Below the pieces are notes generated by a model. That model did not search any database, was not told the DNA's origin, and worked only from the letters and a program-made list of their open reading frames with translations. Shown here piece after piece: positions 18,725 to 55,367 of a DNA stretch of 64,000 nt (positions within the stretch are counted from its first letter, which is position 1; every line of letters begins with the position of its first letter). This stretch comes from Caulobacter zeae. GTDB taxonomy: Bacteria > Pseudomonadota > Alphaproteobacteria > Caulobacterales > Caulobacteraceae. The position numbers were made by a program, and so were the translations under genes. The stretch covers positions 1 to 64,000 of the forward strand of contig NZ_PJRS01000033.1 in assembly GCF_002858925.1 (NCBI RefSeq). Reading direction: 5' to 3'.

Positions 18725-18730
18725 GGTCCT

Positions 18731-35718: not shown

Positions 35719-35747
35719 TTGGCGTCGGGCGCGTTGAAGACTATCCA
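35719..35747 (+). promoter_or_regulatory. Candidate promoter of the ceramide operon
   Basis: TTGGCG (35719-35724) and TATCCA (35742-35747) with a 17-base spacer lie 29-57 bases before the LptC-like start. It is the only reasonable promoter in the 87-base gap. No regulator site is recognised. Confidence 0.35.
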
Positions 35748-35775
35748 TGGCGTCCGTTCTGGATCGTCCGCCCGC

Positions 35776-36390
35776 ATGACCACCGCCGCCCTCTCCGTCG
35801 CTCCCGCCAAGAAGCCCCGCCGCAACCGGCGTCGGCGCTCGGCGCGCTGGGCGCGCGCGGGCCTGCTGGTGCTGGCGGTCGGCGTCTCCGGCGTGGTGAT
35901 CGGCCAGACGACCTTGCGCATGCTCGACACCCACAACGCCTCCAAGGTCGCCGCCGCCGCGCCGCTGGCCATGGACAATCCGCGCTTCACCGGCGCGATG
36001 CGCGACGGCCGCGCCTTCCTGATCACCGCCCGCCGCGCCGAGCGCGACGCGGCCGATCCCAACAAGGTCAAGCTGGTCGAGCCGACCCTGGTCCGCGGAT
36101 ACGGCGCGCCCGACGCCAGCAAGGTGACCTCCAAGGACGGGATCTACCAGGAAGCCCAGAATATCCTGGTGCTGACTCAGGACGTGAAGATCGACAACGG
36201 CCAGGGCTACCAGTTCGCCTCGCAGGAAGCCCGCATCGACACCAAGACCGGCGAGGTCGTCGGCGGCGCGCCGGTGGCCGGCGCCGGCCCGCGCGGCAAT
36301 GTCAGCGCCGACAGCTACAGCGTCAGCGACAAAGGCGATCGCGTGATCTTCAAGGGCCGCGTCCGCACCCGCGTCCAGCCCACCAACTAG
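35776..36390 (+). CDS. LptC-like bitopic periplasmic lipid-transport protein
   Basis: 204 residues: a very basic cytoplasmic start (KKPRRNRRRRSARW), one transmembrane helix (about 28-48) and a periplasmic domain. From residue 65 the LptC/OstA-type beta-jellyroll pattern appears: NPRFTGAMRDGRAFLITA, VTSKDGIYQEAQNILVLTQDVKI, SQEARIDTKTGEVVGG, VSADSYSVSDKGDRVIFKG. LptC takes lipid from LptB2FG and hands it to LptA. It is first in the ceramide operon, not with the usual lptA/lptB genes, so a role in sphingolipid export is likely. No clear ribosome site precedes the ATG at 35776; the next gene starts 12 bases after its stop. Confidence 0.8.
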   Translation: MTTAALSVAPAKKPRRNRRRRSARWARAGLLVLAVGVSGVVIGQTTLRMLDTHNASKVAAAAPLAMDNPRFTGAMRDGRAFLITARRAERDAADPNKVKLVEPTLVRGYGAPDASKVTSKDGIYQEAQNILVLTQDVKIDNGQGYQFASQEARIDTKTGEVVGGAPVAGAGPRGNVSADSYSVSDKGDRVIFKGRVRTRVQPTN

Positions 36391-36402: not shown

Positions 36403-37563
36403 ATGACCGGCCTCGGCCTCCTGGACCAGCAGCGCAGCCGCGCGACGCGCGTGTGCTTCCTCTATATCGCCCAGCCGCACCAGGTCTGGCACAGCCTGTC
36501 GATCGCCGTGGCCATGGCCCGCGCCTGGCCGGAGATCCGGGTCGAGATCGCCGCCACCTCGGCCGGCCACCTCGACTACATCCAGGGCATGCTCGATGGC
36601 CTGGGCGGGGCGCCGATCACCCTGCGCCTGCTGCCGCCGGCCTGGCTGCGTCGGCTGTCCAAGAATGCTCCGCCGCCCAAGGCCCTGATGCTGGCGCTGA
36701 ACGCGGGCAGGCTGGCGGCATACGACGCCGTCGTCACGCCCGAACGCACCACCGCCCTGCTGCGCAAGCTGGGCGTGCGTCGCACCGCCCTCGTCTACAC
36801 CCAGCACGGCGCCGGCGATCGCGGCGGTCCGTTCGAGCCCCGCCTGCGGGTCTTCGACCTGGTGATGGCCGCCGGTCCCAAGCAGCGCGACCGGATGATC
36901 GACGAGGGCTGGGTCCGCCCCGAGGCCTGCGCCATGGTGGGCTACCCGAAGTTCGACCTGGTCGACGCCCTGCCGCCCAGCGCCACCCCGGCCTTCGCCA
37001 AGGCCCTGCCGACCGTGGTCTACAACCCGCACTTCCATGAGACCCTGGGCTCGTGGAGCGCCTTTGGCCTGTCGATCCTCGAGCAGTTCGCTGCCGACGA
37101 GCGGTTCAACCTTATCTTCGCCCCGCACGTGCGACTGTTCGAGACCGCCTCGGAGGCCGACCGCCGCGCGGTCGCGAGCTTCGAGGGCCACCCGCGCATC
37201 CATCTCGACCTCGGCGGCCCGGCCGCCTTCGACATGACCTACACCCGCCAAGCCCACCTCTATCTCGGCGACGTCTCCAGCCAGGTCTACGAGTTCCTGC
37301 GCACGCCAAAGCCCTGCCTGTTCCTCAACCCCAGCCACGCCGACTGGACGGGCGACGAGAGCTTCCATCACTGGCTGTACGGCCCGGTGCGCGAGACGGC
37401 CAACGGGATCTGCGACGCGGTCAGCGCCGCCATCGCCGGGCACGGCGACTTCCTGGAGGTGCAGAAGACGGGCGTGGCCCAGACCTTCGACCTCACCTCC
37501 GTCCCCTCGTCGCAGCGCGCCGCGCGCGCCATCGTCGACCGCCTGGCCGTCCTCGACCGATGA
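36403..37563 (+). CDS. CDP-glycerol:glycerophosphotransferase-like (TagB/TagF family) enzyme
   Basis: 386 residues with the GT-B-like fold of the CDP-glycerol glycerophosphotransferase family: CFLYIAQPHQVWHSL at the N terminus, QHGAGDRG in the middle (TQHGAGD), YNPHFHETLGSW, the nucleotide-binding HVRLFE and DVSSQVYEFL near the C terminus with FLNPSHADW. Family members transfer glycerol-phosphate from CDP-glycerol. In a ceramide locus the natural inference is headgroup addition or elongation of a ceramide-phospho(poly)glycer-type lipid. Its stop overlaps the flippase start (ATGA). Donor and acceptor are not proven by sequence. Confidence 0.78.
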   Translation: MTGLGLLDQQRSRATRVCFLYIAQPHQVWHSLSIAVAMARAWPEIRVEIAATSAGHLDYIQGMLDGLGGAPITLRLLPPAWLRRLSKNAPPPKALMLALNAGRLAAYDAVVTPERTTALLRKLGVRRTALVYTQHGAGDRGGPFEPRLRVFDLVMAAGPKQRDRMIDEGWVRPEACAMVGYPKFDLVDALPPSATPAFAKALPTVVYNPHFHETLGSWSAFGLSILEQFAADERFNLIFAPHVRLFETASEADRRAVASFEGHPRIHLDLGGPAAFDMTYTRQAHLYLGDVSSQVYEFLRTPKPCLFLNPSHADWTGDESFHHWLYGPVRETANGICDAVSAAIAGHGDFLEVQKTGVAQTFDLTSVPSSQRAARAIVDRLAVLDR

Positions 37564-38993
37564 GCGACGCGCCCACGAAAGATGCGTCCCCCAAGGACGC
37601 GGCCTCTAAAGACGCGACGAAGGTCAATCCCCTGGCCAGGATGCTGGCCAATGTCGGCGCCCTGCTGAGCGGGCGCGGACTGAACGCCATTGTCGGCTTG
37701 GCCTATATCGCGGTCACGACCCGCAGCCTCGGCATCGAGGTCTTCGGCTTCCTCACCCTTATCAACGCCTTCGCACAGGCGCTTGGCGAGATGGCCAAGT
37801 TCCAGTCCTGGCAGACCGTCGTGCAATACGGCGCCAAGCCCTTGATGGACGGCGACCGCAAGACCTTCCAGCAGGTGATGCGCTTTGCCCTGGTGCTCGA
37901 CGGCATCGGCGCTGTGGCCGGCGTCGCCATCGGCGTGGCCGGCAGCCTGCTGTTCAGCCACTACATGGGCTGGCCCGACGAGCTCGCGCCGGAGGCGGCG
38001 CTCTACTGCCTGTCGATCGGCGTCATGACCTCGGCCACGGGCGTGGGCCTGCTGCGCCTGTTCGACCGTTTCCGCATGCTGGCCGCCGAGCAGGTGGTCT
38101 CGTCCATCGTGCGCCTGATCGGCTGCGCGATCGCCGCGGCGACGGAAGCGCCGATCGAGATGTTCCTGCTGGCCTGGGCGGCCGGCACGGTGGCCTCGTT
38201 CCTCTATGTCGCCATCATCGCCGTCTGGAGCCTGCTGCAGCGCGGCCTGCTGGACGGCTTCAGCCTCTTTGGCCCGCTCGGCGTCGGCCTGCCGGGCGTC
38301 TGGCGCTTCGCCTGGGCGACCAATTTCAGCAGCACCATCGAGGTCGGCTTCACCCACGTCCTGACCCTGGCCATCGGCGCGCTGGTCGGCCCGGCGCCCG
38401 CCGCCATGTGGCGGGTCGGCCGGCAGGTGGCCGACGGCATGGCCAAGCCCGCGCGCCTGATGCTGCCCGCCCTGCATCCCGAGTTCGCCCGCCTGCGCGC
38501 CCAGAAGGACGACGCGGCCATGCTGCGCCTGGCCCGCCAGATCGCCCTGATCGGCGGCGGCGTCGCCGGCGTGCTGCTGCTGGTCTGCCTGCTGGCCGGT
38601 CCCTGGCTGCTGACCGTGATCATGGGCGCGGAATACGCCTCGGCCGCCGGCATCATGAGCTGGCAGGTCGCCGCCGCCGCGATCAGCATCATGGCCCTTC
38701 CGATCGAGCCTATGCTGGTCTCGATGCATGCGGCGGGCGCCGCCCTGCGCGTGCGCATCGTCGTCATCGCCATCTACTTCGCCGCCCTCGTGCCGCTGCT
38801 GCAGATCTTCGACCTGACCGGCGCCGGCGCGGCCCTGGTCCTGGCCTCGACCTGCATGGCGATCGGCATGTTCATCACCCTCCGGTCGCGTCTCGCCGCG
38901 GAAGCCGCCGCCGAGCGCGAGGACAAAAGCGCCGTCATGCTTGAACAGACTTGCGCGGAACCCCTGAACGAGCGCAAAGGCGATCCGCAATGA
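37560..38993 (+). CDS. Wzx/MATE-type lipid flippase (polysaccharide-biosynthesis transporter family)
   Basis: 477 residues with about 12-14 hydrophobic segments and the MOP-family start GLNAIVGLAYIAVTTRSLG, VFGFLTLINAFA; a 25-residue Lys/Asp/Ser-rich leader precedes it. Proteins of this family flip lipid-linked intermediates across the inner membrane. Here the gene overlaps both neighbours by four bases, between the CDP-glycerol transferase and the acyl-ACP synthetase, so ceramide lipids or their precursors are the probable cargo. Confidence 0.82.
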   Translation: MSDAPTKDASPKDAASKDATKVNPLARMLANVGALLSGRGLNAIVGLAYIAVTTRSLGIEVFGFLTLINAFAQALGEMAKFQSWQTVVQYGAKPLMDGDRKTFQQVMRFALVLDGIGAVAGVAIGVAGSLLFSHYMGWPDELAPEAALYCLSIGVMTSATGVGLLRLFDRFRMLAAEQVVSSIVRLIGCAIAAATEAPIEMFLLAWAAGTVASFLYVAIIAVWSLLQRGLLDGFSLFGPLGVGLPGVWRFAWATNFSSTIEVGFTHVLTLAIGALVGPAPAAMWRVGRQVADGMAKPARLMLPALHPEFARLRAQKDDAAMLRLARQIALIGGGVAGVLLLVCLLAGPWLLTVIMGAEYASAAGIMSWQVAAAAISIMALPIEPMLVSMHAAGAALRVRIVVIAIYFAALVPLLQIFDLTGAGAALVLASTCMAIGMFITLRSRLAAEAAAEREDKSAVMLEQTCAEPLNERKGDPQ

Positions 38994-40702
38994 ATACGCC
39001 CACCGCTTCCGGCAGGACCGTCCGTCTCGCCGACTTCCCGACCCTGACCGCCGCCCTGGACTTCGCCGCGACCGGCGAGACCGGGATCAACCTGCATTCG
39101 CTGCGCGGCGAACTGGTCGAGGCCCTCAGCTACGCCGCCCTGCGCGAGCAGGCCCAGGGCCTGGCCCGCCGCCTGCTGGCCGCCGGCTCCAAGGTGGGCG
39201 ACAGCGTCGCCCTGATCGCCGAGACCGACGGCGACTTCGTGCGCGCCTTCTTCGCCTGCCAGTACGCCGGCCTGGTGCCCGCCCCCCTGCCCCTGCCCGC
39301 CCCGCTGGGCGGTCGCGAGGCCTATATCGAGCAGATCGGCCGCATGTGCGCCTCGGCTCACGCCAGGATCCTGATCGGCCCGTCCGGCATGGCCGAGTGG
39401 CTGAAGCAGATCGGCGACGCCGCCGGCCTCGACTTCGCCGCCCCGCTGTCTGAGCTGCCGGAAGACGCCGGCGCGGCCCTGCCCGAAATCACGCCCGAGC
39501 ATCCCTGCTATCTTCAGTTCTCGTCGGGCAGCACCCGCTTCCCGACCGGCGTGCTGGTGACGCACAAGGCCCTGATGGCCAACGCCGTGGCCATCACCCG
39601 CGACGGCCTGCAGGTGAAGCCGGAAGACCGCGCGGTCTCGTGGCTGCCGCTCTATCACGACATGGGCCTGATCGGCTTCCTGCTGAGCCCGCTGACCAGC
39701 CAGATGAGCGTTGACCTGCTGCCCACCGGCGCCTTCGTGCGCCGGCCGCTGCTGTGGCTCGACCTGATCAGCCGCAACGGCGGCACGATCGCCTACAGCC
39801 CGACCTTCGGCTACGAGCTGTGCGCCCGCCGCGCCGAGGCCGCTTCGATCGACCACCTGGACCTGTCGCGCTGGCGCAGCGCGGGCCTTGGCGGCGACAT
39901 GATCCGCACCGCGCCCGTCGAGGCCTTTGCGGAACGGTTCGCCGCCGTCGGCTTCTCGGAAAAGGCCTATGTGGCCAGCTACGGCATGGCCGAGGCGACC
40001 CTGGCCCTCTCCATGGCCCCGCTGGGCAAGGGCCTGCGCGTCGAGATCCTCGACATCGAACGCCTGGAGCGCGACGACCTGGCCGTCACGGTCGGCGCCG
40101 ACGCGCCCCGCGCCCGGGCCTTCGCCCGCTGCGGTCCGGCCCTGCCCCACCACCAGCTCGAAGTGCGCGACGCCGGCGGCAAGCCGGTGGCCGAGCGCCA
40201 TGTCGGCCGCATCTTCGCCAAGGGCCCCAGCCTGATGGGCGGCTATTTCGAGCAGCCGGAGGAGACCGCCCGCGTGCTCGACGCCGACGGCTGGCTCGAC
40301 ACCGGCGACCTCGGCTTCCTAGTCGAGGGCGAGATCGTCATCACCGGCCGCGCCAAGGACCTGATCATCCTCAACGGCCGCAACATCTGGCCGCAGGACC
40401 TGGAATGGACCGCCGAGCGCGAGGTCCCCGGCCTGCGCAGCGGCGACGTGGCCGCCTTCTCCGTTCCCGGAGACGCGGCGGAAGAAGAGATCGTCACCAT
40501 CCTGGTCCAGGCCCGCGGCGGCGACGCCGACAGCCGCGCGGCTTTGGTCGACACGGTGGCCGGCGTGCTGCGTTCGCGCCACGGCGTCGAGACCCAGGTC
40601 AAGCTGGTCGGCGCCCACGCCCTGCCCCAGACCTCGTCGGGCAAGCTCAGCCGCTCCAAGGCCAAGGCCGCCTATCTGGCCGGCGCCTACGAGCGCGCCT
40701 GA
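38990..40702 (+). CDS. aasR: Fatty acyl-ACP synthetase / acyl-AMP ligase for sphingolipid synthesis
   Basis: 570 residues, ANL superfamily of the FAAL type: P-loop-like LQFSSGSTRFPTGV, A4 motif region WLPLYHDMGLIG (typical of fatty acyl-AMP ligases), YGMAEATLAL, DTGDLGFLVEGEIVITGRAKDLIIL and the C-terminal TSSGKLSRSKAK, with the adenylation lysine. It should activate a fatty acid with ATP and load it on the dedicated ACP two genes on. From established work on C. crescentus, an acyl-ACP synthetase (AasR) at this place feeds serine palmitoyltransferase. Starts within the flippase stop (ATGA). Confidence 0.88.
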   Translation: MNTPTASGRTVRLADFPTLTAALDFAATGETGINLHSLRGELVEALSYAALREQAQGLARRLLAAGSKVGDSVALIAETDGDFVRAFFACQYAGLVPAPLPLPAPLGGREAYIEQIGRMCASAHARILIGPSGMAEWLKQIGDAAGLDFAAPLSELPEDAGAALPEITPEHPCYLQFSSGSTRFPTGVLVTHKALMANAVAITRDGLQVKPEDRAVSWLPLYHDMGLIGFLLSPLTSQMSVDLLPTGAFVRRPLLWLDLISRNGGTIAYSPTFGYELCARRAEAASIDHLDLSRWRSAGLGGDMIRTAPVEAFAERFAAVGFSEKAYVASYGMAEATLALSMAPLGKGLRVEILDIERLERDDLAVTVGADAPRARAFARCGPALPHHQLEVRDAGGKPVAERHVGRIFAKGPSLMGGYFEQPEETARVLDADGWLDTGDLGFLVEGEIVITGRAKDLIILNGRNIWPQDLEWTAEREVPGLRSGDVAAFSVPGDAAEEEIVTILVQARGGDADSRAALVDTVAGVLRSRHGVETQVKLVGAHALPQTSSGKLSRSKAKAAYLAGAYERA

Positions 40703-40703: not shown

Positions 40704-41675
40704 GTGGCCAGGACGGACGTGGAAGGTCCGGGACCCAGCGTCGTCGCCGTCACCGGCGCGACCGGCTTCCTGGGCCAGCACCTCGTCCGCGCCATCGCCG
40801 AACGGGGCCTTGTCCCCCGCATCCTGTCGCGCCGCGATCCGGTCTCGCCGTTCTGGCGCGGGATCGAGCCGCAGGTGGTGCTGGGCGACCTCGCCCGCCC
40901 CGAGGCGCTGGCCCGCCTGTGCGACGGCGCCGACGTCGTCATCCACCTGGCCGGCCTGATCAAGGCCGCCGACCGCGCCGCCTTCGACAAGGTCAACGTC
41001 GACGGCGCGCGAGCCGTGGCGCAGGCCGCGGCCAAAGCCGGCGCCCGCTTCGTGCTGGTCTCCAGCCTCGCCGCCCGCGAACCCCAGCTTTCCGACTACG
41101 CCGCCAGCAAGCGCGCCGGCGAGGAAGCCGTACTGGCGATCGCGCCCGAGGCGCTGGTCATCCGCCCGCCGGCCATCTACGGCCCTGGCGACCGCGAGAC
41201 CGTCGGCCTGTTTTCCGCCGCCCAGGCCAGCCGCGTCCTGCCGGTGCTGTCGCCCGCCTCACGCGTGGCGATGATCGAGGTGCGCGACGCCGCCGCCCAG
41301 ATCCTCGACCTGGTCGCGAGCGGCCGCGCGGGCCTGGCCTCGATCTGCGACGCCCGACCCGACGGCTATGCCTGGAGCGAGATCATGACCGCCGCCGCGA
41401 CGGCTGTCGGCGCGCCGCCGCCTCGCCTGCTGCGCGTGCCCGAAGGCCTGATCCGACTGGCCGGAGGCGTCGCCGAAGTGGCGAGTAAAATCTCAGGACA
41501 ACCATCGGTGTTCGGATCGGGCAAAGCGCGCGAACTGTCGCATGCAGATTGGGCGTTTTTGGCTGATCGGTCCCTTGCGTCGTCGCCGAGTCGTCACGAT
41601 GTTGCCCGCGGCTTCGGCGAAACCGTCGACTGGTATCGGTCGGCCGGGTGGTTGTCGAAAAAATACAGCGACTAG
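40704..41675 (+). CDS. cerR: Ceramide reductase CerR (NAD-dependent epimerase/dehydratase family)
   Basis: 323 residues, extended short-chain dehydrogenase: nucleotide motif GATGFLG at residues 18-24, and the active-site Y133-x3-K137 in DYAASK, with the Ser at VSSLAA upstream. In bacterial ceramide synthesis this protein reduces the 3-keto group, and in Caulobacter it is thought to act on the oxidised ceramide after N-acylation. The GTG start at 40704 is one base after the aasR stop. It is followed by a 79-base gap before the ACP, where a second promoter may lie. Confidence 0.88.
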   Translation: MARTDVEGPGPSVVAVTGATGFLGQHLVRAIAERGLVPRILSRRDPVSPFWRGIEPQVVLGDLARPEALARLCDGADVVIHLAGLIKAADRAAFDKVNVDGARAVAQAAAKAGARFVLVSSLAAREPQLSDYAASKRAGEEAVLAIAPEALVIRPPAIYGPGDRETVGLFSAAQASRVLPVLSPASRVAMIEVRDAAAQILDLVASGRAGLASICDARPDGYAWSEIMTAAATAVGAPPPRLLRVPEGLIRLAGGVAEVASKISGQPSVFGSGKARELSHADWAFLADRSLASSPSRHDVARGFGETVDWYRSAGWLSKKYSD

Positions 41676-41754: not shown

Positions 41755-42006
41755 ATGGATACAGTGACAGATCTAAGTTTGCGTGAGATCGGGCTGGCGA
41801 CGAGCAAGGTGCTCGGCCGCACGGTCGAGGTGACGAACGACACCCACATCGGCCGCGACCTGGCAGTGGATTCCCTCGCCCTGATGAACATCGTGATGGA
41901 GCTCGAAGATTCCTTCGACATCTCCATCCCGCTCGATCGCCTCGCCGCGGTGGAAACCGCCGGCGACCTCTCCAAACTGATCAACGATCTCCGAACCAAG
42001 GCTTGA
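41755..42006 (+). CDS. acpR: Dedicated acyl carrier protein for sphingolipid synthesis
   Basis: 83 residues. The phosphopantetheine serine is S40 in AVDSLALMN (DSL). The rest fits the four-helix acidic ACP fold. It ends three bases before spt, so the carrier and the condensing enzyme are co-translated. It is known in C. crescentus and other alphaproteobacteria that a specialised ACP supplies the acyl chain to serine palmitoyltransferase in place of CoA. Confidence 0.93.
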   Translation: MDTVTDLSLREIGLATSKVLGRTVEVTNDTHIGRDLAVDSLALMNIVMELEDSFDISIPLDRLAAVETAGDLSKLINDLRTKA

Positions 42007-42009: not shown

Positions 42010-43224
42010 ATGGGTCTGTTCGACAAGCACCTGGCCTATCGCGACGCGTACAAGGCCATCCAGCAAGCGGGCGCCGACCCGTTCACCGTCCGTTTCGACG
42101 CCGTGGTCTCGCCGACCGAGGGCGTTGTCGAGGGGCGTCCCACGATCCTGCTGGGCACCAACAACTATCTGGGCCTGACCTTTGACGAGAAGGCGATCGC
42201 CGCCTCGGTCAAGGCCGTCCAGGAACGTGGCACCGGCACCACCGGTTCCCGCATCGCTAACGGCAGCTTCGAGGCCCACGTGGCCCTGGAGACAGCGCTG
42301 GCCGAGTTCTACGGCCGCAAGCACGCCATGGTGTTCACCACCGGCTACCAGGCCAATCTCGGCGTGCTGTCGACCCTGGTCGGCCGCGGCGACCACCTGA
42401 TCCTCGACGCCGACAGCCACGCCTCGATCTACGACGGCTCGCGCCTGGGCCACGCCGAGGTCATCCGCTTCCGCCACAACGACCCTGAAGACCTGGCCAA
42501 GCGCCTGCGTCGCCTCAAGGACGTCCCGGGCGAGCGCCTGATCGTCGTCGAAGGCATCTATTCGATGATCGGCGATACCGCGCCGCTCAAGGAAATCGCC
42601 GCCGTAAAGCGCGAGATGGGCGGCTACCTGCTGGTCGACGAAGCCCACTCGATGGGCGTGCTCGGCGCCACCGGCCGCGGCCTGGCCGAAGCCGCGGGCG
42701 TGGAAGACGACGTCGACTTCATCGTCGGCACCTTCTCCAAGAGCCTGGGCGCCATCGGCGGCTTCTGCGTGTCGAACCTCGACGACTTCGACGTCATGCG
42801 CGTGATCTGCCGTCCGTACATGTTCACCGCCTCGCTGCCGCCGGCCGTGGTCGCCTCGACCTTGGTGGCGCTGGAGCAGATGATCGCCAAGCCGCAGCTG
42901 CGCGAACAGCTCAACAGCAACGCCTGCCGCCTGTACGACGGCCTGACCGCGCTTGGCTTCGTCACCGGCCCGGCCGCCAGCCCGATCGTCGCGGCCACCA
43001 TGCCCGACGTCGAGCGCGCCATCGCCATGTGGAACGGCCTGCTGCAATCGGGCGTCTACCTGAACCTCGCCCTGCCGCCGGCCACGCCCGACAGCCGCCC
43101 GCTGCTGCGCGCCAGCATCAGCGCCGCCCACACCCACGAGCAGATCGACCAGGTCCTCAAGATGTTCGCCGAGGTCGGCACGGCGCTTGGCGTCATCGAC
43201 GGCCAGCAGCGCGCCTTCGCTTAA
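42010..43224 (+). CDS. spt: Serine palmitoyltransferase
   Basis: 404 residues, alpha-oxoamine synthase family (PLP, fold type I). The PLP lysine is K244 in TFSKSLGAIGGF; H137 stacks on the ring (DADSHASIYDG), and D210/H213 (LVDEAHSMG) contact the cofactor. GTTGSRIANGS and YGRKHAMVFTTGYQAN are typical. It condenses serine with acyl-ACP to 3-ketosphinganine, the first committed step of sphingolipid synthesis. Other family members (KBL, BioF, HemA) are possible on sequence alone, but the acpR-aasR-cerR-cerS context settles it. A strong terminator follows. Confidence 0.95.
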   Translation: MGLFDKHLAYRDAYKAIQQAGADPFTVRFDAVVSPTEGVVEGRPTILLGTNNYLGLTFDEKAIAASVKAVQERGTGTTGSRIANGSFEAHVALETALAEFYGRKHAMVFTTGYQANLGVLSTLVGRGDHLILDADSHASIYDGSRLGHAEVIRFRHNDPEDLAKRLRRLKDVPGERLIVVEGIYSMIGDTAPLKEIAAVKREMGGYLLVDEAHSMGVLGATGRGLAEAAGVEDDVDFIVGTFSKSLGAIGGFCVSNLDDFDVMRVICRPYMFTASLPPAVVASTLVALEQMIAKPQLREQLNSNACRLYDGLTALGFVTGPAASPIVAATMPDVERAIAMWNGLLQSGVYLNLALPPATPDSRPLLRASISAAHTHEQIDQVLKMFAEVGTALGVIDGQQRAFA

Positions 43225-43285: not shown

Positions 43286-44200
43286 TCAGCGCTCTCTCGC
43301 CCTGCGCCATTTCCACAGGCCCAGCAGGATGCCCGGCGCGGCCAGGACCGGATGGCGCTCGCGCCAGGGGGTCAGTTCGACCTTGAAGCCGGTGTGGCGC
43401 TCGATCTTCCAGGCGGCGTAGCGGGCCGCGCCCTGGAAGGTGAAGGCGGCCTTGATCAGGCGGGCCACGTTCAGCGACTTGCCGAGGTTGCGCCGCAGCC
43501 GCCAGGCGGCTTTCAGGCGCTTGCGCTCGATCGCCGACATCTGCGGCGCAGGCCGCCCCTCGCCGTCTAAGCGGCCGTCGTCGGCCCAGCAGGCCGGCAG
43601 CAGGCGCTGGTAGTGCGCGGGATCAAAGGCCAGGATCGAGGCCTCGCGCCCAGCCTTCTCGACCCGGAACTCGGCGGCGTAGGTCTCCTGGAACAGCGCC
43701 GTCCAATAGGCCTCGGGCGGCCCGTCCTCGGGCCCCAGGGCGGTGGCGAAACGGGCGGCGGTGCGGGCGGCGCGGCGCACGGCCTCGACCACCGCCTCGC
43801 GCGCGACCTCGTCGGCGGCCCAGACCAGGCCCGAGGGCTGTACGAAACGGGTCCACAGGGTGGTGTCGATCCCCCTGCCCTTCACCGCCTGTGAGAAGCG
43901 CGACAGGGTCATGGAGGCGACCTTGGCCCGCAGGGTCCCCCCCTCGTGCTCCAGTTCGTGATAGCTGACGTCGGGCCACAGGATGCGGGTGGCCACGCCG
44001 CGCAGGCCGCGCGGCGGCCGCTCGGTGAGCACGTAGAAGTCCAGCACGCCCGACAGGTCGCCGGTGCGCAGGATCGAGCCGTAGAACAGCACCGCCTGGG
44101 CGGTCGGAAACAGGCCCGTCAGGTGTTCGGCGAAGGCGCAGATCGGCGCCGGGATCGACTGCGCCAGCTCGGCCTCGACCAGCGGCCGGACCGCGCTCAT
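43286..44200 (-). CDS. cpgA: CpgA-like nucleotidyltransferase-superfamily protein of ceramide headgroup synthesis
   Basis: 304 residues. The only recognisable motif is a polymerase-beta-type nucleotidyltransferase signature, FYGSILRTGDLSGVLDFYVL; here the usual second motif D-h-D-h is V-L-D-F, so one of the two metal-binding aspartates is missing. The C-terminal half is basic (KRLKAAWRLRRNLGK) and may sit on the membrane. It is the last gene of a three-gene minus-strand unit with cpgB and cpgC, overlapping cpgB by four bases. In C. crescentus cpgABC at this place is required for the anionic ceramide phosphoglycerate lipid; the exact reaction of CpgA is not known to me. Confidence 0.75.
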   Translation of the reverse strand: MSAVRPLVEAELAQSIPAPICAFAEHLTGLFPTAQAVLFYGSILRTGDLSGVLDFYVLTERPPRGLRGVATRILWPDVSYHELEHEGGTLRAKVASMTLSRFSQAVKGRGIDTTLWTRFVQPSGLVWAADEVAREAVVEAVRRAARTAARFATALGPEDGPPEAYWTALFQETYAAEFRVEKAGREASILAFDPAHYQRLLPACWADDGRLDGEGRPAPQMSAIERKRLKAAWRLRRNLGKSLNVARLIKAAFTFQGAARYAAWKIERHTGFKVELTPWRERHPVLAAPGILLGLWKWRRARER

Positions 44201-45108
44201 CCGACCACGAACCGCAACGGCGCGCCCAGGGCCAGGGCCAGCTTGCCGCCCTCGAACACCTCGCCGTCGAGCACGAAATCGAACTGGCCGGAGGCGTAGA
44301 GCGCCGCCGGGTCGCGTCGGCGATAGCCGCGCGCCTCGAGGATCGGCTTGTCCTTGCCCGACAGCACCGTGGGCACCATGCGCAGCAGCCGCTTGGGCGG
44401 GGCGTCGACGTCGAGCACCTTCAGCCCCTCGCGCGGCGGACCGAACGGCTTGAGATTGAACGGCAGGCGCTTGAGGGCGGTAGCCAGCAGCACGAAGCGC
44501 TCGCCTTCGGGCTGGACCTCGCCGTCCATGGCCACCTTCACGGCTACGCCCTGGCGCCACTGGTCGCGCGCGCCGCCGAACAGCGCGCCCAGCGTGGCGC
44601 CGGCCAGGGTCACGGCCACCGACAGGCTCTGGAACACGCCCATGCGGTTGACGCGCTTGGACAGCGCCGTGGCCCGCACCAAGGCCCCCAGGCCGAAGAA
44701 GAAGCCCCGCAGCGGCGGACGGCCGTCGGCGAAACGCACCTCCAGCGGGGCTCGGATCTTGATGCGCGGTTCGGCCTGGGCCGCGGCGGCCAGGGCCTCC
44801 TCCAGCCGCCAGTCGCGCGGCGCGCCCAGGTCGATGGCCAGCACGTTGGTCTTGCCCGACGGCAGGATCGCCAGCATCGGCATGTCGTCGCCGAAGGTCG
44901 ACGGCGTCAGGCCCAGCACGTCGCGCACCGTGCCGTCGCCGCCGTCGATGACCAGCAGGTCGATCCTGTCCTCTGCAAAGCGGGCCAGTTCCTCGCCCAG
45001 CGCCTCGCGCGTCGCCGGCTCGACCACGCGCACGCCCTCGGGGGTCGGCGCATGCACCCGGCCCTGGTTGGCGTGACTGCGCGGGTTACGGACGACGCCG
45101 ACGCGCAT
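44197..45108 (-). CDS. cpgB: Ceramide kinase CpgB (diacylglycerol-kinase family)
   Basis: 303 residues. The lipid-kinase catalytic domain has GGDGT at residues 56-60 and LPSGKTNVLAIDLG, the ATP-site NxG/GTxN region; the C-terminal beta-sandwich ends FDFVLDGEVFEGG. It phosphorylates the primary hydroxyl of ceramide with ATP; a bacterial ceramide kinase from this position is established in C. crescentus. The ATG at 45108 overlaps the cpgC stop (TGATG); a GTG one codon earlier (45111) is also possible. Confidence 0.88.
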   Translation of the reverse strand: MRVGVVRNPRSHANQGRVHAPTPEGVRVVEPATREALGEELARFAEDRIDLLVIDGGDGTVRDVLGLTPSTFGDDMPMLAILPSGKTNVLAIDLGAPRDWRLEEALAAAAQAEPRIKIRAPLEVRFADGRPPLRGFFFGLGALVRATALSKRVNRMGVFQSLSVAVTLAGATLGALFGGARDQWRQGVAVKVAMDGEVQPEGERFVLLATALKRLPFNLKPFGPPREGLKVLDVDAPPKRLLRMVPTVLSGKDKPILEARGYRRRDPAALYASGQFDFVLDGEVFEGGKLALALGAPLRFVVG

Positions 45109-46232
45109 CACCGCGACAGCCAGGACTGGATCGAGCCCTTGGGGGCCAGGGCGCCCTGCACGATCTGAAGGGCGTGGACGAGGAAGCAGATCGCCGTCCA
45201 GACCGCCACCAGCACGAAGCCGATGTCCGGGCGGCCGACCAGCACGCTGCCGGTCAGCAGGATCAGGTTCGGGTTGCGACGGGCCGTGATCAGCCGGAAG
45301 AAGCTGTCGAACGGCCGCCAGGCGTGCATCTCAAGCTTGAAGAGGGCCAGGAATATGCCCTCCTCGACCCGCTGGGCCACATAGCCGCCGACCACGATGG
45401 CCAGCAGCCACGGCGCATAGGGCATCGACAGGCCGACGGCGAACACGCCGACATACCAGGCCCACCACCAGAACGGCGGGTGCACCAGGTCGATGCCGTG
45501 GTCGAAGACATTGCCCCACTTGGACGAGGTCAGGGTCACCCGAGCCAGCTTGCCGTCGACGGTGTCGAGGAAGGTCATGATCCAGGCGCAGGCCAGGCCC
45601 CAGCCGAACTGGCCGCGCCAGAACAGCACGAAGGCGGCGATGGTCAGCAGGAAGCCGATGAAGGTCACCTGGTTGGGCGTCATCTTCGCGAGAGCGCACC
45701 AGCGGGTGACGATCCGCGCCGGGGTCGGCCAGACGTACTTGGTGACGAGGTCGGTGACGCCCTTGTACGAGCCCTGGAACAGGCGCTTCTCGACGGCCCG
45801 CACGCTGTCCTTGGTCAGGCGCTCCAGAACCGGCGGCTCGCGCTTGCGCAGGGCGCTGTTGTAGGCCGAGCCCAGCTCCAGCGCTGTCAGGCGCACAAAG
45901 CGCGCATCGACGGCCGAAGGATCCTGTCCCGCCGCCAGGGCCGCGATCGCGGCTTCGGCGACCTCGGCCGGGGCGTTCACCGCTGTCGGGGCGCCGGCGT
46001 CGTCGACCAGAACCGCCCACGGGCGGCCAACCAGGGCCTTGATCAGCGACTCGTCGAACACCCAGCCGGCGTGCACGGCGATCGCGTCGCCGCCCAGCCC
46101 AGCGCCTTCAGAGACGCCGATCCGGCGATAGATGCGCGACAGCCGCTCGCCCGAGGTCATGCCCCAGATCCGCGCCTCGCTGTCGCCCACCGTCACGGCG
46201 CGCGAAGCGACTGGATTGATTTCGCCGGTCAC
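45108..46232 (-). CDS. cpgC: CDP-alcohol phosphatidyltransferase-family protein CpgC with degenerate nucleotidyltransferase-like N-terminal part
   Basis: 374 residues. Residues about 160-360 form a CDP-alcohol transferase membrane domain with the complete motif D226-G-x2-A-R-x8-G240-x3-D244-x3-D248. The first 130 residues resemble the middle of NTP-transferase proteins (RIWGMTSGERLSRIYRRIGV) but lack the GxGxR nucleotide loop, so this domain is probably inactive or structural, as in some inositol-phosphate cytidylyltransferase fusions. It should move an alcohol-phosphate or lipid-phosphate moiety between CDP-linked and lipid acceptors. It is the first gene of the cpg unit and divergent from the phosphoesterase. 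Confidence 0.85.
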   Translation of the reverse strand: MTGEINPVASRAVTVGDSEARIWGMTSGERLSRIYRRIGVSEGAGLGGDAIAVHAGWVFDESLIKALVGRPWAVLVDDAGAPTAVNAPAEVAEAAIAALAAGQDPSAVDARFVRLTALELGSAYNSALRKREPPVLERLTKDSVRAVEKRLFQGSYKGVTDLVTKYVWPTPARIVTRWCALAKMTPNQVTFIGFLLTIAAFVLFWRGQFGWGLACAWIMTFLDTVDGKLARVTLTSSKWGNVFDHGIDLVHPPFWWWAWYVGVFAVGLSMPYAPWLLAIVVGGYVAQRVEEGIFLALFKLEMHAWRPFDSFFRLITARRNPNLILLTGSVLVGRPDIGFVLVAVWTAICFLVHALQIVQGALAPKGSIQSWLSR

Positions 46233-46310
46233 CGGTACTTAAACCCCTTGAAAGCCGAGGCGATTGATAAGCAGCTTCGCCGAAATTCGCCACAATCGCG
46301 CCGGTCCCTC

Positions 46311-47201
46311 TTGTCGATATTCCGCCTCGCCCATCTGTCGGACCCTCACCTGCCGCCGCCGCCGGGCGCGTTCGGCTGGCGTGACCTCGCGTCCAAGCGG
46401 CTGCTGAGCCGCATCGCCTGGCGTCGAAAGCACAAGATCCACCGTCCCGAAGTCCTCGACGCCCTGGTCGCCGACCTGAAGGCCCACGCTCCAGACCATG
46501 TGGCGATCACCGGCGATCTCACCAACTTCGCCTCGCCCGTCGAGATCGCGGCGGCCACGCGCTGGTTGCAAAGCTTGGGCCCCGCCGAGACGATCACCGT
46601 CAGCCCCGGCAACCACGACGCCCTGGTCGGCGAGACCGCCCAGGCCCGCTTCGCCCCCTGGACCGCCTGGCTGGGCGACGACGAGCAGGCCGCCTTCCCG
46701 CAGGTGCGGTTGCGCGGCCCCGTGGCGCTCTTCAACCTGTGTTCGGCCTTGCCCACCGCCCTGCATCTGGCCACCGGACGCCTCGGCGTCGAGCAGCTCG
46801 ACAAGCTCGACGCCCTGCTGGCCGACCCCGCCTTCGCCGACAGGTTCAAGGTCGTGATGCTGCACCATCCGCCGATCGCCGGCGCGGTCTCGGGCCGCAA
46901 GTCGCTGGACGATCAGGCCCCCCTGCGCGACGTCCTCGCCCGCCGCGGCGCCGACCTGGTGCTGCACGGGCACGCCCACGAATCGCTGACCGCGACCATT
47001 CCCGGCCCGGGCGGCCGGTCGATCCCCGTGCTGGGCGTGCCCTCGGCCTCGGCCTGGGTCGGCGGCCATTCGCCGGCCCGCTGGCACGCGCTGGAGATCG
47101 AGCAGCGTGAGAATGGCGGCTTTTCGCTGCGGGTCATCGCGCGCGGGCTCGATCCGGCCACGGGCGGGATCAGGGAGCTGGGCCGCTATTCGCTGATCTA
47201 G
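46311..47201 (+). CDS. Calcineurin-like metallophosphoesterase
   Basis: 296 residues. All five metallophosphatase blocks are present: HLSDPHL (D-x-H), ITGDLTN (GD), SPGNHD (GNH[DE]), MLHHPP (H) and LHGHAH (GHxH). Such enzymes cleave phosphomonoesters or phosphodiesters with two metal ions. It has no signal peptide. The start must be TTG at 46311 since no ATG or GTG lies before the first catalytic block. It is divergent from cpgC with a 78-base shared promoter gap, so a role in sphingolipid headgroup metabolism is plausible but unproven. Confidence 0.85.
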   Translation: MSIFRLAHLSDPHLPPPPGAFGWRDLASKRLLSRIAWRRKHKIHRPEVLDALVADLKAHAPDHVAITGDLTNFASPVEIAAATRWLQSLGPAETITVSPGNHDALVGETAQARFAPWTAWLGDDEQAAFPQVRLRGPVALFNLCSALPTALHLATGRLGVEQLDKLDALLADPAFADRFKVVMLHHPPIAGAVSGRKSLDDQAPLRDVLARRGADLVLHGHAHESLTATIPGPGGRSIPVLGVPSASAWVGGHSPARWHALEIEQRENGGFSLRVIARGLDPATGGIRELGRYSLI

Positions 47202-47771: not shown

Positions 47772-48209
47772 ATGCCCAATCCCACAGCCCTCGCATTCGG
47801 CTTCCCACGCTCGAAAGTGGCCGAGACCGACCACTGGTTGGTGCTTGTACGTCCCAAGCAGCCGACTTTCGGGTCTCTCGTCCTGGTATGCAAGGAACCC
47901 GTGCAGGCATTCTCCGATCTGAGCCCCGCCGCCTTCGCCGACATGCAGGTCGCCGTGGCCGGGATCGAGCGTGTCCTGAAGGCCAAGGTCGCCTACGAAA
48001 AGATCAACTACCTGATGCTGATGATGGTCGATCGCGACGTGCATTTCCACGTCCTGCCCCGCTACGAGGGCGCACGCGAACACGAGGGAACCAGCTTCCC
48101 TGACACCGGTTGGCCCGCCGCCCCGGCCCTCGGTTCGACCGTGGCGCTGGACGACGCCGCGGTCGAGCGCCTGGCCCAGGACTTCGCAGCCGCGTGGGCC
48201 GCCGCGTGA
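47772..48209 (+). CDS. HIT-family protein
   Basis: 145 residues, histidine triad fold. The active-site motif reads VHFHVLPRY, so the usual H-x-H-x-H-x-x is H-F-H-V-L: the third histidine is replaced by leucine, and the enzyme may be altered or use a different arrangement. HIT proteins hydrolyse nucleotidyl bonds (dinucleotides, nucleotide-phosphoramidates, CDP-linked lipids). It is the first gene of the HIT-lptF-lptG-cerS-nucleotidyltransferase operon and overlaps the LptF-like start by four bases (GTGA). Confidence 0.85.
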   Translation: MPNPTALAFGFPRSKVAETDHWLVLVRPKQPTFGSLVLVCKEPVQAFSDLSPAAFADMQVAVAGIERVLKAKVAYEKINYLMLMMVDRDVHFHVLPRYEGAREHEGTSFPDTGWPAAPALGSTVALDDAAVERLAQDFAAAWAAA

Positions 48210-49435
48210 GCAGGCTGAAGAAGAAGTTCGACGTGCGGCGCATCACGGCCATGGGCCTGATCGACCGCTACCTGCTGCGCCTGCTCGGCTGGCCGCTGGC
48301 CGGATGCCTGGGCCTGACCGTCGTCGCCCTGCTGCTCGAGCGGGTGCTGCGCCTGCTCGACTTGCTGTCGCAGAGCGCCGCGCGCTTCGACTACGTCACC
48401 CAGCTGGCGCTGAACCTCCTGCCCCACTACCTGGGCCTGGCCCTGCCGGTGGCGTTCTTCGTCGCCCTGTTCATCGTCATCAGCAAACTGTCGGACGGCT
48501 CGGAGATCGACGCCCTGCTGGCCGGCGGCCAGTCGCTGGAACGGATCGCCGCGCCCTTCGTCTGCGTGGGCCTGGCGCTCAGCATCTTCAGCATCGCGGT
48601 GTTCGGCTATGTCCAGCCCTACAGCCGCTACGCCTATCGCGCCGTGATGCACGCGGCGGTCAACGCCGGCTGGAACGGCCGCCTGTCCGGCGGGGCGTTC
48701 ATCGACGACGACGGCTCGCTGATGACCGCCGACGCCGCAGACCTGGCGGGCCAGAGCCTGACCCGCGTCTTCATCCGCCGTCCCGACGCCGCCGGCCACG
48801 AAGAGCTGATCACCGCCGCCAGCGCCACCTTGCAGGTCTCGGCCGACGGCAAGACGGTGACGATGCGCCTGAAGTCGGGCCGCCGCATCGGCAGCGATGC
48901 GCGGGGCAACTATCGCAGCCTGGCCTTCGACGACCTGACCACCGAGGCGCCGCTCAAGGCCGCCGCCAGCCTGCTGCGCGCCCGCGGCGGCGACGAGCGC
49001 GAGCTGACCCTGGGCGAGCTGCTGCGCCAGGCCAGGTCGCCCAACCCGGTCGTGCCCAAGGCCACCCTGATGGCCGAGTTCTACGGGCGCATCGCCCGCG
49101 CGGCCTTCCTGCCGTTCCTGCCGCTGCTGGCCTTCCCGCTGGGTCTGGCCGCCAAGCGCGGCAACCGCGCGCCCGGCCTGCTGCTGGCCGGGGTGCTGCT
49201 GCTGGCCTTCCAGCACAGCCTGCTGCTGGGCCAGAGCCTGGCCGAATCCGGCCGCATCGCTTCGCTGCCGGCCGTCGGCCTGCCGTTCCTGATCTTCACG
49301 GGCCTGGCGGTCTGGCTGTTCGTCGGCAGCCGCACGCGGCCCGGCGACACCCCGATCTCGCGCCTCGTCCTGGCCATGAGCGCCCAGTTCCGCCGCGCCC
49401 TCAAGCCGTTCCAGCGCAAGGAGCGCGCCGCATGA
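48206..49435 (+). CDS. LptF-like permease subunit (second copy type, sphingolipid locus)
   Basis: 409 residues of the LptF/LptG (YjgP/YjgQ) family: N-terminal helix pair (GLIDRYLLRLLGWPLAG), the SDGSEIDALLAGGQSLERI coupling-helix region that contacts LptB, a periplasmic beta-jellyroll domain (about 110-290) and three C-terminal helices. LptB2FG extracts LPS from the inner membrane. Located next to cerS rather than with the usual lptA-lptB or lptFG cluster, it is likely a paralogue for sphingolipid. The GTG at 48206 (GTGA overlap) is chosen; an ATG at 48251 would remove 15 basic residues. Confidence 0.85.
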   Translation: MSRLKKKFDVRRITAMGLIDRYLLRLLGWPLAGCLGLTVVALLLERVLRLLDLLSQSAARFDYVTQLALNLLPHYLGLALPVAFFVALFIVISKLSDGSEIDALLAGGQSLERIAAPFVCVGLALSIFSIAVFGYVQPYSRYAYRAVMHAAVNAGWNGRLSGGAFIDDDGSLMTADAADLAGQSLTRVFIRRPDAAGHEELITAASATLQVSADGKTVTMRLKSGRRIGSDARGNYRSLAFDDLTTEAPLKAAASLLRARGGDERELTLGELLRQARSPNPVVPKATLMAEFYGRIARAAFLPFLPLLAFPLGLAAKRGNRAPGLLLAGVLLLAFQHSLLLGQSLAESGRIASLPAVGLPFLIFTGLAVWLFVGSRTRPGDTPISRLVLAMSAQFRRALKPFQRKERAA

Positions 49436-50493
49436 AGCTGCAGCTCTACGTCCTGCGCACGGTCGCCACGCGCGTGCTCGGCGCCGTCCTGATCCTGATG
49501 GCCATCCTGCAGATCCTCGACCTGCTGGAAGTCACCACCGACATCCTCGACCGGGGCCTCGGCGTCGGCGGGGTGTTCTACTACGCCGCCCTGCGCGCCC
49601 CGGCCCTGTTCCAGCAGGTCGCCCCGCTGGCCGTGCTGGCCGGCGGCCTGTTCGCCTTCTCGCAGCTGGCCCGCGAGAACGCGGTCGTGGCCATGCGCGC
49701 CGCCGGCATCTCGGGCTACCGCATCGTCGCCATGGCCGTGCCCGTGGCGATCGCCGTGCTGGCGCTCGACGCCCTGTGCGCCCAGGTCGTGTCGCCGCGC
49801 ACCGACCCGACGCTCAGCGCCTGGTGGGCCGCAACCACGCCGGCCGCCGATCGCAAGGCCCCCGCCTCGCGCACCTTCCGGGCGGGGGAGGACCTGGTCA
49901 CCGCCAAGGAAGCCAGCGCCAACGGCGCGCGCCTGACCGAGCTGACCATTTATCGCCGCGACAAATCCGGCGCCCTGACCGAGCGCGTCGTCGCCCCGTC
50001 GGCGCAGTTCCAGGCCGGCGCCTGGCGCCTGCAATCGCCGGTGACCACCCGCTATCTGGGCGACCGCGTCGAGCCGATGACCGCCGCCTCGGCCACCTGG
50101 CCCACCGCCTTGCGTCCCGCCGACGTGCAGGCCCTGTTCGCCGACGCCCCGGCCCCGTCCGCCGCCTCGGCCCGCCGGGCGCTGGAGAACGGCGGCTCGG
50201 ACCGTCCGCAGAGCTTCTACGCCACCCGCCTGCAGACGGCCTTCTCGGGGCCGATCGCGGCGCTGGTCATGCTGCTGCTCAGCGCCCCCGTGGCCTGGGC
50301 CAACTTCCGCAGCGGCCAGGGCGCGGTGCTGCTGACCTCGGGCCTGGCCGCCGGGCTCGTCTTCCTGGTCGCCGACGGCCTGCTGTCGGCCCTGGGCGAA
50401 TCCGGCGCCCTGTCGCCGATCCTGGCCGCCTGGGCCGCCCCCGTCGTCTTCGCCGCCCTTGCCGTGCGCGCCTTCGTATCCCTGGAGGGATGA
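49432..50493 (+). CDS. LptG-like permease subunit (sphingolipid locus)
   Basis: 353 residues, second LptF/LptG family protein: YVLRTVATRVLGAVLILMAI, then LEVTTDILDRGLG, the coupling-helix region QLARENAVVAMRAAGISGYRI, a periplasmic domain (about 110-265) and three C-terminal helices. It starts at ATGA within the LptF-like gene, which is how heterodimeric LptFG pairs are usually encoded. No lptB ATPase gene is in the window, so the cell's LptB or another ABC ATPase would have to energise the pair. Confidence 0.85.
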   Translation: MKLQLYVLRTVATRVLGAVLILMAILQILDLLEVTTDILDRGLGVGGVFYYAALRAPALFQQVAPLAVLAGGLFAFSQLARENAVVAMRAAGISGYRIVAMAVPVAIAVLALDALCAQVVSPRTDPTLSAWWAATTPAADRKAPASRTFRAGEDLVTAKEASANGARLTELTIYRRDKSGALTERVVAPSAQFQAGAWRLQSPVTTRYLGDRVEPMTAASATWPTALRPADVQALFADAPAPSAASARRALENGGSDRPQSFYATRLQTAFSGPIAALVMLLLSAPVAWANFRSGQGAVLLTSGLAAGLVFLVADGLLSALGESGALSPILAAWAAPVVFAALAVRAFVSLEG

Positions 50494-51647
50494 TGCCTTT
50501 CGATTCCGCGGCCGAGGCCATCTCGGTCCTGCCCGTCCGCACGCCTGAAGAGCTCAAGCGCTTCATCGCCCTGCCCGCGCGCCTGAACGCCAAGGATCGA
50601 AGCTGGATCACCCCGCTGTTCCTGGAACGGACCGAGGCTCTGTCGCACAAGACCAACCCGTTCTTCCAGCACGCCGAGGTGCAGCTGTTCCTGGCCGTGC
50701 GCGGCGGCCGCGACGTCGGCCGGATCAGCGCCCAGATCGACGAGCTCACCCCGCAGAAGACCCCAGGTCGCCTGGACGGCCACTTCGGCCTGATCGCCGC
50801 CGAGGACGACGCCGAGGTCTTCGCCGCCCTGCTGCGTGCGGCCGAGGCCTGGCTGCGCGAACGCGGCCGCACCCACGTGATGGGTCCGTTCAACCTGTCG
50901 ATCAACGAGGAGGTCGGCCTGCTGGTCGACGGCTTCGACACCCCGCCGATGGTGATGATGGGCCACGATCCGGCTTATGCCGGCGGCCGCATCGAGGCGC
51001 AGGGCTACGACAAGGCCAAGGACATCTACGCCTACTACGCCCCCATGCAGGCCGACCTGCCGCCCGCCGTGCGCCGCCGCGCCGAGCGTCCGCCGGCCGA
51101 GGGCGTGGTGCTGCGCCAGCTCGACATGAGCCGCTACGACGAGGAAGTGGTCACCCTGACCGAGATCCTCAACGACGCCTGGAAGGACAACTGGGGCTTC
51201 ACCCCCACCACCGAGGCCGAGACCGCCCAGCTAGCCAAGGCCCTCAAGGCCGTGATCGACAAGCGCCTGACCTGGTTCGCCGAGATCGACGGCGAGGCGG
51301 CCGGCTTCCTGGTGTTCCTGCCCAACGTCAACGAGGCGATCCGCGATCTTGGCGGCAAGCTGCTGCCGTTCGGCTGGGCCAAGCTCCTGTGGCGACTGAA
51401 GGTTAAGCGCGTGAAGTCGGCCCGCATCCCGCTGATGGGGGTCAAGCGCAAGTTCTCCGAGAGCATCCGCGGCCGCATGCTGCCTTTCCAGATGATGCAC
51501 GCCGGCCGCACCTCGGCCATCGCGCTCGGCTACGAGCGGTTCGAGATCTCGTGGGTGCTGGAAGAGAACATGCCCATGCGCCGCATCGCCGAGTCCCTTG
51601 GCGCGCAGATCTACAAGACCTACCGGATCTACGAGAAGGCGCTGTGA
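50493..51647 (+). CDS. cerS: Bacterial ceramide synthase CerS (GNAT-fold N-acyltransferase)
   Basis: 384 residues. It belongs to the large GNAT-like family used by bacteria to N-acylate 3-ketosphinganine/sphinganine; it has a first domain (LFLAVRGGRDVGRISAQID; MGPFNLSINEEVGLLVDGFD) and a second acyl-CoA-fold domain (WFAEIDGEAAGFLVFLPNVNEAI; ISWVLEENMPMRRIAESLGA, quoted in parts). The ending MRRIAESLGAQIYKTYRIY is typical of the family. This position matches the C. crescentus bCerS gene. The GGAGG at 50484-50488 serves the ATG at 50493 (TGATG overlap with LptG stop). Confidence 0.88.
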   Translation: MPFDSAAEAISVLPVRTPEELKRFIALPARLNAKDRSWITPLFLERTEALSHKTNPFFQHAEVQLFLAVRGGRDVGRISAQIDELTPQKTPGRLDGHFGLIAAEDDAEVFAALLRAAEAWLRERGRTHVMGPFNLSINEEVGLLVDGFDTPPMVMMGHDPAYAGGRIEAQGYDKAKDIYAYYAPMQADLPPAVRRRAERPPAEGVVLRQLDMSRYDEEVVTLTEILNDAWKDNWGFTPTTEAETAQLAKALKAVIDKRLTWFAEIDGEAAGFLVFLPNVNEAIRDLGGKLLPFGWAKLLWRLKVKRVKSARIPLMGVKRKFSESIRGRMLPFQMMHAGRTSAIALGYERFEISWVLEENMPMRRIAESLGAQIYKTYRIYEKAL

Positions 51648-52405: not shown

Positions 52406-52447
52406 GTCGGACCGACCTTCAGAAATTCCGACAATTTTCTACCGAGG

Positions 52448-52547
52448 TTCCCCGCGAAGGTGTTGTGTCCCGAGAGCTTGGCGAGGAGTTCGGCGGGAGC
52501 CTTGTGATCGAGGCATAGCAATCGGGACACAACACCTTCGCGGGGAA
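52448..52547. repeat. 100-bp element with perfect 26-bp inverted arms
   Basis: Bases 52448-52473 are the exact reverse complement of 52522-52547 (arms begin TTCCCCGCGAAGG), with a 48-base spacer. It starts 43 bases after the last gene of the cerS operon and could serve as a very strong transcript-end hairpin, or be a small non-autonomous mobile element. No transposase or target duplication was noticed. Confidence 0.85.
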
Positions 52548-52584
52548 GAACGGGTTTGGGGGCAGTGGTGGGGCGTCTGTCCGC

Positions 52585-52809
52585 CTAGCGCCAGTAGCCG
52601 TTGGCCGCCGCCACGGTGGCGAAGTTCACCGCCACCACGTGCGAGACGGCCGTCAGGGCCTGGGCGTCGTTCTCGTAGATCGCCCGCAACCGCGCGCGCA
52701 CCTCGTCGGAGGGTTGGGTCTTCTTGACCGCCATCCGAGAGAGCTTGATGGCGAGGTCATAGCCCTCCTCGGGCGTGGCGGTGATCAGGCTGGGAAGCCA
52801 GGCGGCCAT
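52585..52809 (-). CDS. Small hypothetical protein
   Basis: 74 residues, predicted largely helical (ATPEEGYDLAIKLSRMAVKK; VRARLRAIYENDAQALTAV), without signal peptide. The pattern suggests a real small protein: clear codon bias and no better alternative frame. Not recognised. Confidence 0.5.
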   Translation of the reverse strand: MAAWLPSLITATPEEGYDLAIKLSRMAVKKTQPSDEVRARLRAIYENDAQALTAVSHVVAVNFATVAAANGYWR

Positions 52810-52909
52810 TGGACGTCACTCACGTTCAGGATCCGGCCAGCCTAGGCGGCCCGGCGCGACGACGATTGGACGAAAAGCTCCGCCGTTCCGTCCAATCGTC
52901 GCCAAGACC

Positions 52910-53392: not shown

Positions 53393-53448
53393 GACAGGCT
53401 CCTTCGGCCGCTCTGCGGCCGGGTTCAGGGGAGGACGAGCACGCGCAC

Positions 53449-54660: not shown

Positions 54661-54693
54661 GGTCTTGCTCCTTGAAAGATCAGGTGTCGGGCG

Positions 54694-55353: not shown

Positions 55354-55367
55354 GAAGCCCTCAATTC

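Follow-up and report, generated by a model that had tools for sequence, protein, structure and literature searches.

Among the closest described counterparts of the locus analyzed here is the CPG/CPG2 pathway of Caulobacter crescentus, which comprises CpgA-D, CC_1158 and CC_1153. CpgD makes CDP-glycerate and CpgA is proposed as its user (PMC12275187), an assignment repeated in a 2026 preprint (PMC13228409), while CC_1153 is needed for CPG2 in Caulobacter (PMC11324152). CCNA_01210-01226 are described as a sphingolipid biosynthesis and export cluster affecting phage infection (PMC13001222), and bacterial sphingolipids allow Caulobacter to survive without LPS (PMC12275187). The inner-membrane sphingolipid flippase was still unidentified in 2024 (PMC11087976). 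In PMC11324152, CC_1166 is named a potential flippase and CC_1167 is called probably unrelated, with cofitness values of 0.57 with spt and 0.54 with CC_1159. Literature searches on CC_1166-1168 or CCNA_01224-01226 returned this paper as the sole on-topic one among the matches listed, and searches for a sphingolipid CDP-glycerol transferase or for Lpt-type sphingolipid export found no other study.

Here we examine a stretch of 64,000 nucleotides from Caulobacter zeae, hereafter the window, with a focus on the CC_1167 counterpart, designated X, and the flippase gene that follows it. The assignment of X to the sphingolipid pathway is strong, and X probably finishes or modifies sphingolipids.

The sphingolipid locus of C. 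zeae

The gene order of the locus is that of CC_1168 to CC_1153 of C. crescentus (PMC11324152, Fig. 4 legend; Table 1), and it is on this order, rather than on the CB15 sequence, that X is equated with CC_1167. An LptC-like gene, X, the flippase, an acyl-AMP ligase, CerR, ACP and Spt are followed by CpgC, CpgB and CpgA on the opposite strand, and then by the phosphoesterase, HIT, LptF2/G2, CerS and N1153 genes. The sphingolipid cluster is complete, Spt, ACP, acyl-AMP ligase, CerR and CerS standing together with the Cpg genes; Spt was assigned by its NCBIfam cutoff and the other cluster genes by Pfam and order.

As the initial annotation had proposed, X and the flippase overlap by four bases, an ATGA at 37560..37563 on the forward strand providing both the X stop and the flippase start, and the pair does lie between an LptC-related ORF and an acyl-activating gene. 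A 646-aa ORF from 37053 was ruled out as the flippase, the true start being the ATG within this ATGA. A second ATGA couples the flippase end to the start of the AMP-binding gene at 38990. The upstream ORF scores 59.9 bits with the Pfam LptC model and 33.3 bits with NCBIfam LptC_YrbK, under the cutoff of 38. Elsewhere in the window, an Rfam suhB/mmgR small RNA lies at 18724-18804 (55.1 bits, gathering score 41).

Table 1. Features of the sphingolipid locus, in window coordinates.
Feature	Position	Strand	Remarks
LptC-related protein (LptC2)	35719..36390	+	Alternative start ATG at 35776; upstream of X
X, divergent TagB/TagF-type (Glyphos_transf-like) GT-B transferase	36403..37563	+	Predicted; ATG start; 386 aa, intact; CC_1167 ortholog by gene order
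WzxE-like MOP flippase	37560..38993	+	477 aa, intact; CC_1166 ortholog by gene order
Fatty acyl-AMP ligase (AasR)	38990..40702	+	NF006624, 881.9 bits (cutoff 600)
NAD-dependent epimerase-family reductase, CerR	40704..41675	+	CerR by gene order
Acyl carrier protein (PP-binding)	41755..42006	+	
Serine palmitoyltransferase (Spt)	42010..43224	+	NF047599, 680 bits (cutoff 500)
CpgC (CC_1161)	43286..44200	-	By gene order; start inferred from alignment
CpgB (ceramide kinase)	44197..45111	-	By gene order (PMC11324152); DAGK_cat
CpgA (CC_1159)	45108..46232	-	CDP-OH_P_transf
Calcineurin-like phosphoesterase (CC_1158)	46278..47201	+	Identity by gene order
HIT protein (CC_1157)	47772..48209		
ORF with LptG2 permease (PF03739) in C-terminal half	48304..50493	+	
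N1153, NTP_transf_3 nucleotidyltransferase	51635..52405	+	CC_1153 by gene order
CpgD (CC_1152) homolog	57681..58424	-	74% identity with the Caulobacter copy adjoining N1153 in locus L122

Family and fold of X and of its partner flippase

The window X protein matched no Pfam or NCBIfam model at E≤0.1. At the same threshold, PF04464 (Glyphos_transf) was matched by 42 of 58 aligned relatives, as the only family widely matched among them, and one relative (L010) exceeded its cutoff (34.0 vs. 22.1 bits). The label "CDP-glycerol-transferase-like" given by the initial annotation thus holds only at the family level, and finds no model match in the window protein itself.

The structural model of X is a two-domain GT-B protein (pLDDT 93.2). 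In VIA, a capsule synthesis multienzyme (Z 24.3) and TagF (Z 24.2) score highest, with UDP-GlcNAc 2-epimerase (Z 23.6) and TarL (Z 23.0) close behind. Since UDP-GlcNAc 2-epimerases head Foldseek's own ranking, and epimerase and TagF tie within one Z unit, the modeled fold alone does not appear to decide the class of X; the GT-B fold is shared with other GT-B families and is hence not specific for PF04464. The family profiles seem to discriminate better, PF04464 being found in 42 of the 58 relatives and an epimerase model in none. That X is a sugar-nucleotide 2-epimerase-like enzyme feeding a sphingolipid glycan would account for the Foldseek ranking and the Z of 23.6, yet none of the eight families found in the 58 members at E≤0.1 is represented by an epimerase model, and the conserved SS-type motif and PF04464 signatures make this reading very unlikely.

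Several motifs are invariant across the 58 relatives, namely HGAGDR, Y-x-P-H, P-H and G-D-x-S-S-Q, which in X correspond to H135-GAGDR, H210, H242 and G289-D-x-SSQ, the last including D290-x-SS. These motifs resemble those of the PF04464 family. In profile alignments, the PH region of X pairs with Cps3D and the DvSSQ region with both Cps3D and TarL, and H135 would be the equivalent of TagF H444. Searched against solved structures, the A2 profile reached only Cps3D at E 0.012 and TarL at E 0.079, values at which unrelated chains also appear, and a single relative used as query returned nothing at E≤10. Taken together, profiles and model indicate that X is likely a TagF-type GT-B protein with divergent PF04464 signatures, in agreement with the enzyme type first proposed for it. 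Four homologs (L065, L069, L072 and L076) bear a C-terminal extension of about 180 aa, which gave no Pfam match in L072, the one tested.

The Wzx-type label proposed for the flippase was borne out, the window protein scoring 33.7 bits with PF01943 (cutoff 28.2), a family matched by 18 of 27 of its relatives. Its model (pLDDT 90.6) is closest to WzxE (Z 33.7, rmsd 3.3 over 406), followed by MurJ (Z 29.9).

Co-occurrence and linkage with sphingolipid genes

In the order survey of 120 genomes, in which Spt-positive genomes were those with a match at E≤1e-100 as in the class survey, X was found in 11 of 36 Spt-positive and none of 84 Spt-negative genomes (Fisher p 5e-7, a value that, like our other Fisher p-values, overstates independence since the genomes are related). 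Two genomes of the same genus that lack X also lack Spt. In the class survey of 385 genomes, 11 had a strong X match (E<1e-90), 9 of them with Spt. Only 9 of the 49 Spt-positive genomes of the class carry X, which is therefore not a core step of sphingolipid synthesis. All such presence and absence calls depend on thresholds.

The two exceptions in the class survey are G482 and G241. In G482, a single contig holds tandem copies of X alongside genes for the flippase, N1153, LptF2/G2, phosphoesterase and a CpgB-like protein, and for a PLP enzyme that resembles Spt at just 34%; this complete-looking sphingolipid-type cluster (L123) perhaps serves a different lipid base. In G241, X lies near a contig end and the best PLP enzyme is 31% like Spt. 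Genomes G401 and G414, with partial matches to the A2 profile (E 1e-17 to 1e-19) and no Spt above 36%, were rejected as X genomes.

The flippase was surveyed likewise. At E≤1e-15 in the order survey, it was detected in 27 of 120 genomes, the sole Spt-negative match being the weakest of the 27 (25% identity). Absence from other sphingolipid producers, which the initial annotation had considered as an argument against its own proposal, is thus not observed: the flippase is present in 26 of 36 Spt-positive genomes and in 1 of 84 Spt-negative ones, a near-exclusive association that supports the predicted lipid-flippase role in the sphingolipid pathway. We conclude that this Wzx-like protein goes along with sphingolipid synthesis.

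Genomic neighborhoods were compared for 88 X rows, made up of the best 80 of 576 and 8 others. At least one other sphingolipid-cluster gene lies in the fetched stretch in 52 of the 88, the flippase and HIT genes being left out of this score. On the X tree, a quick one with some long branches, the linked or unlinked label changes 8 times, vs. 27.9 after shuffling. X is linked in Caulobacter and Phenylobacterium, Belnapia and Siccirubricoccus, Azospirillum and Niveispirillum, as well as in Sphingopyxis, Sphingomonas oleivorans, Novosphingobium colocasiae and two other Caulobacterales families (f4 and f5), so that linked loci fall in several separate parts of the tree, with differing gene orders. 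Among the 36 unlinked rows, 34 correspond to 32 genomes, and Spt is found in all 32 (50-72% identity), which speaks against the unlinked copies belonging to another system, as they had seemed to do at first. The four-base overlap from X into the flippase is seen in 32 of 50 loci with both genes, and from the flippase into X in 4 of 50.

These distribution data contradict the "unrelated" label of CC_1167. A bystander status in the operon, as on the published map (PMC11324152), would fit the fact that most Spt-positive genomes lack X; however, Spt is present in 11 of 11, 32 of 32 and 9 of 11 X-positive genomes in the respective sets, linkage recurs in differing gene orders, the translational overlap is conserved, and the cofitness published in the same paper also speaks for a connection, so that we find this explanation scarcely credible. 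Polarity on the downstream aasR gene could be what lies behind the cofitness seen for CC_1167.

Outside the Caulobacter/Phenylobacterium block, 63 loci were inspected within 3 kb of X: the flippase was found in 16, N1153 in 13, HAD phosphatase, CerS and AasR in 6 each, CpgD and CerR in 4 each, CpgA and HIT in 3 each, and three other genes once each. The HAD-type phosphatase gene lies about 0.9 kb or less from X in L013, L014, L016, L017, L103 and L106, PF12710 having been tested in L013 and L103. The HIT protein CC_1157, called unrelated and without cofitness in PMC11324152, adjoins sphingolipid genes in the Belnapia, Azospirillum, Sphingopyxis and S. oleivorans loci.

Glycosyltransferase-like genes, as judged by eye from the sequences, lie beside X in Sphingobium and some other loci. 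X could itself be a glycosyltransferase that adds a sugar from a nucleotide sugar to ceramide or phosphoceramide, a possible but rather unlikely reading that draws on these neighbors (Sphingobium, G405 and the G042 paralog), on the occurrence of the GT-B fold in many glycosyltransferases and on weak GT4-like Pfam matches in 3-4 of 58 relatives. It is countered by PF04464 as the sole widely matched family, by the PH and D-x-SS motifs, which agree with Glyphos_transf members, and by the finding that, beyond Caulobacter and Phenylobacterium, the nearest enzyme gene to recur beside X is N1153 (13 of 63 loci).

Candidate donors and proposed role of X

The donor was addressed in a set of 80 genomes, consisting of 78 Spt-positive genomes plus G241 and G482, with six Spt-positive genomes left out; CpgD orthologs were called at E≤1e-50, the next best match being 1e-18. 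CpgA and CpgD share one identical presence pattern, with both in 36 genomes and neither in 44. This agreement favors CpgA as the enzyme that consumes CDP-glycerate, in support of the published idea. Among the 21 X-positive genomes, 13 have both and 8 have neither. The association of X with CpgD is weak (13 of 21 X-positive vs. 23 of 59 X-negative genomes, p 0.06). The flippase occurs in 19 of 21 X-positive vs. 21 of 59 X-negative genomes, and N1153 in 20 of 21 vs. 44 of 59, such that the genomes with X are almost a subset of those with the flippase, these of the genomes with N1153, and these in turn of the genomes with Spt. A late and optional step carried out by X would be expected to give such nesting. 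N1153 is present in each of the 40 flippase-positive genomes; the distance between the two is at most 3.5 kb in 21 of them and at most 20 kb in 31. In G022 and G086, the flippase and N1153 are present but X is absent; the flippase therefore does not need X.

The initial annotation suggested that X extends the phosphoglycerate headgroup. A CDP-glycerate-dependent transferase adding or extending phosphoglycerate on ceramide phosphoglycerate would be consistent with the TagF-type fold of X, with the CpgD step, likened by its authors to TagD/TagF (PMC12275187), with the cofitness of CC_1167 with CC_1159 (0.54; PMC11324152), and with the presence of CpgD no more than 3 kb from X in 4 of 96 loci. 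This proposal is nevertheless weakened by the 8 of 21 X-positive genomes devoid of both CpgA and CpgD, for which CDP-glycerate was dropped as the leading donor candidate. The shared CpgA/CpgD pattern and the weak X-CpgD association also speak against it, as does the cited prediction of the authors that genera without CC_1167 make CPG2 (PMC11324152), and we regard it as unlikely.

Among solved structures, the closest to N1153, a MobA-like nucleotidyltransferase, is that of the uncharacterized TTHA0179; CMP-Kdo synthetases and a 3-phosphoglycerate guanylyltransferase match it more weakly. X may use, or act beside, the product of N1153. N1153 has another role as well, since it also occurs without X. 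In the window, CpgD lies about 5 kb from N1153 (52405-57681), and the two are convergent neighbors in L121 and L122. CpgC contains an invariant nucleotidyltransferase-like motif, YGS-x-LR ... D-x-Y; profile searches of PDB and Pfam with CpgC gave nothing useful. CpgC may be similar to Tam41, in which case it would be a CTP:ceramide-phosphate enzyme.

From gene anatomy, fold, family signatures, co-occurrence and linkage, all computed, we infer the catalysis, donor, acceptor, sidedness and order of steps as follows. X rather probably acts as headgroup transferase in the synthesis of a hitherto undescribed phosphosphingolipid, at a step that precedes flipping. It would work on the cytoplasmic side of the inner membrane and attach to a phosphorylated ceramide lipid a small group supplied in nucleotide-activated form, most likely linked to CDP like the substrates of TagB/TagF; the donor would more likely be tied to N1153 than to CpgD. 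The dedicated WzxE-like flippase, whose translation begins at the overlapping start codon, would then turn the finished lipid to the periplasmic face, from which a second Lpt set (LptC2, LptF2 and LptG2) would carry it to the outer membrane. A bolder version, which we hold to be quite unlikely, is that X builds a ceramide-anchored, teichoic-acid-like headgroup or short polymer that is flipped by Wzx and exported by the second Lpt machine in Alphaproteobacteria; if true, it would be a sphingolipid counterpart of lipoteichoic acid or LPS, missed by ordinary lipid extraction. The analysis places a dismissed gene back in the sphingolipid pathway, provides the proposed flippase with a near-exclusive association with sphingolipid producers, and predicts a further lipid species in organisms without the known CPG2 enzymes.

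Three known systems come closest to this locus. The window shares its cluster and gene order with the CPG/CPG2 pathway of C. crescentus, whereas X also occurs without CpgA and CpgD in 8 of 21 X-positive genomes. With TagB, TagF and TarL, the CDP-glycerol or CDP-ribitol transferases of PF04464, X has in common the modeled fold and the motif order HG, PH, D-x-SS; X differs in that it is 386 aa long, lacks the extra domains of the polymerases and resides in a Gram-negative sphingolipid cluster, where its predicted acceptor is a ceramide lipid. Finally, the flippase shares its fold and Polysacc_synt models with WzxE/Wzx and MurJ of the MOP superfamily, but tracks Spt, and its predicted substrate is a phosphosphingolipid rather than an undecaprenyl-linked glycan.
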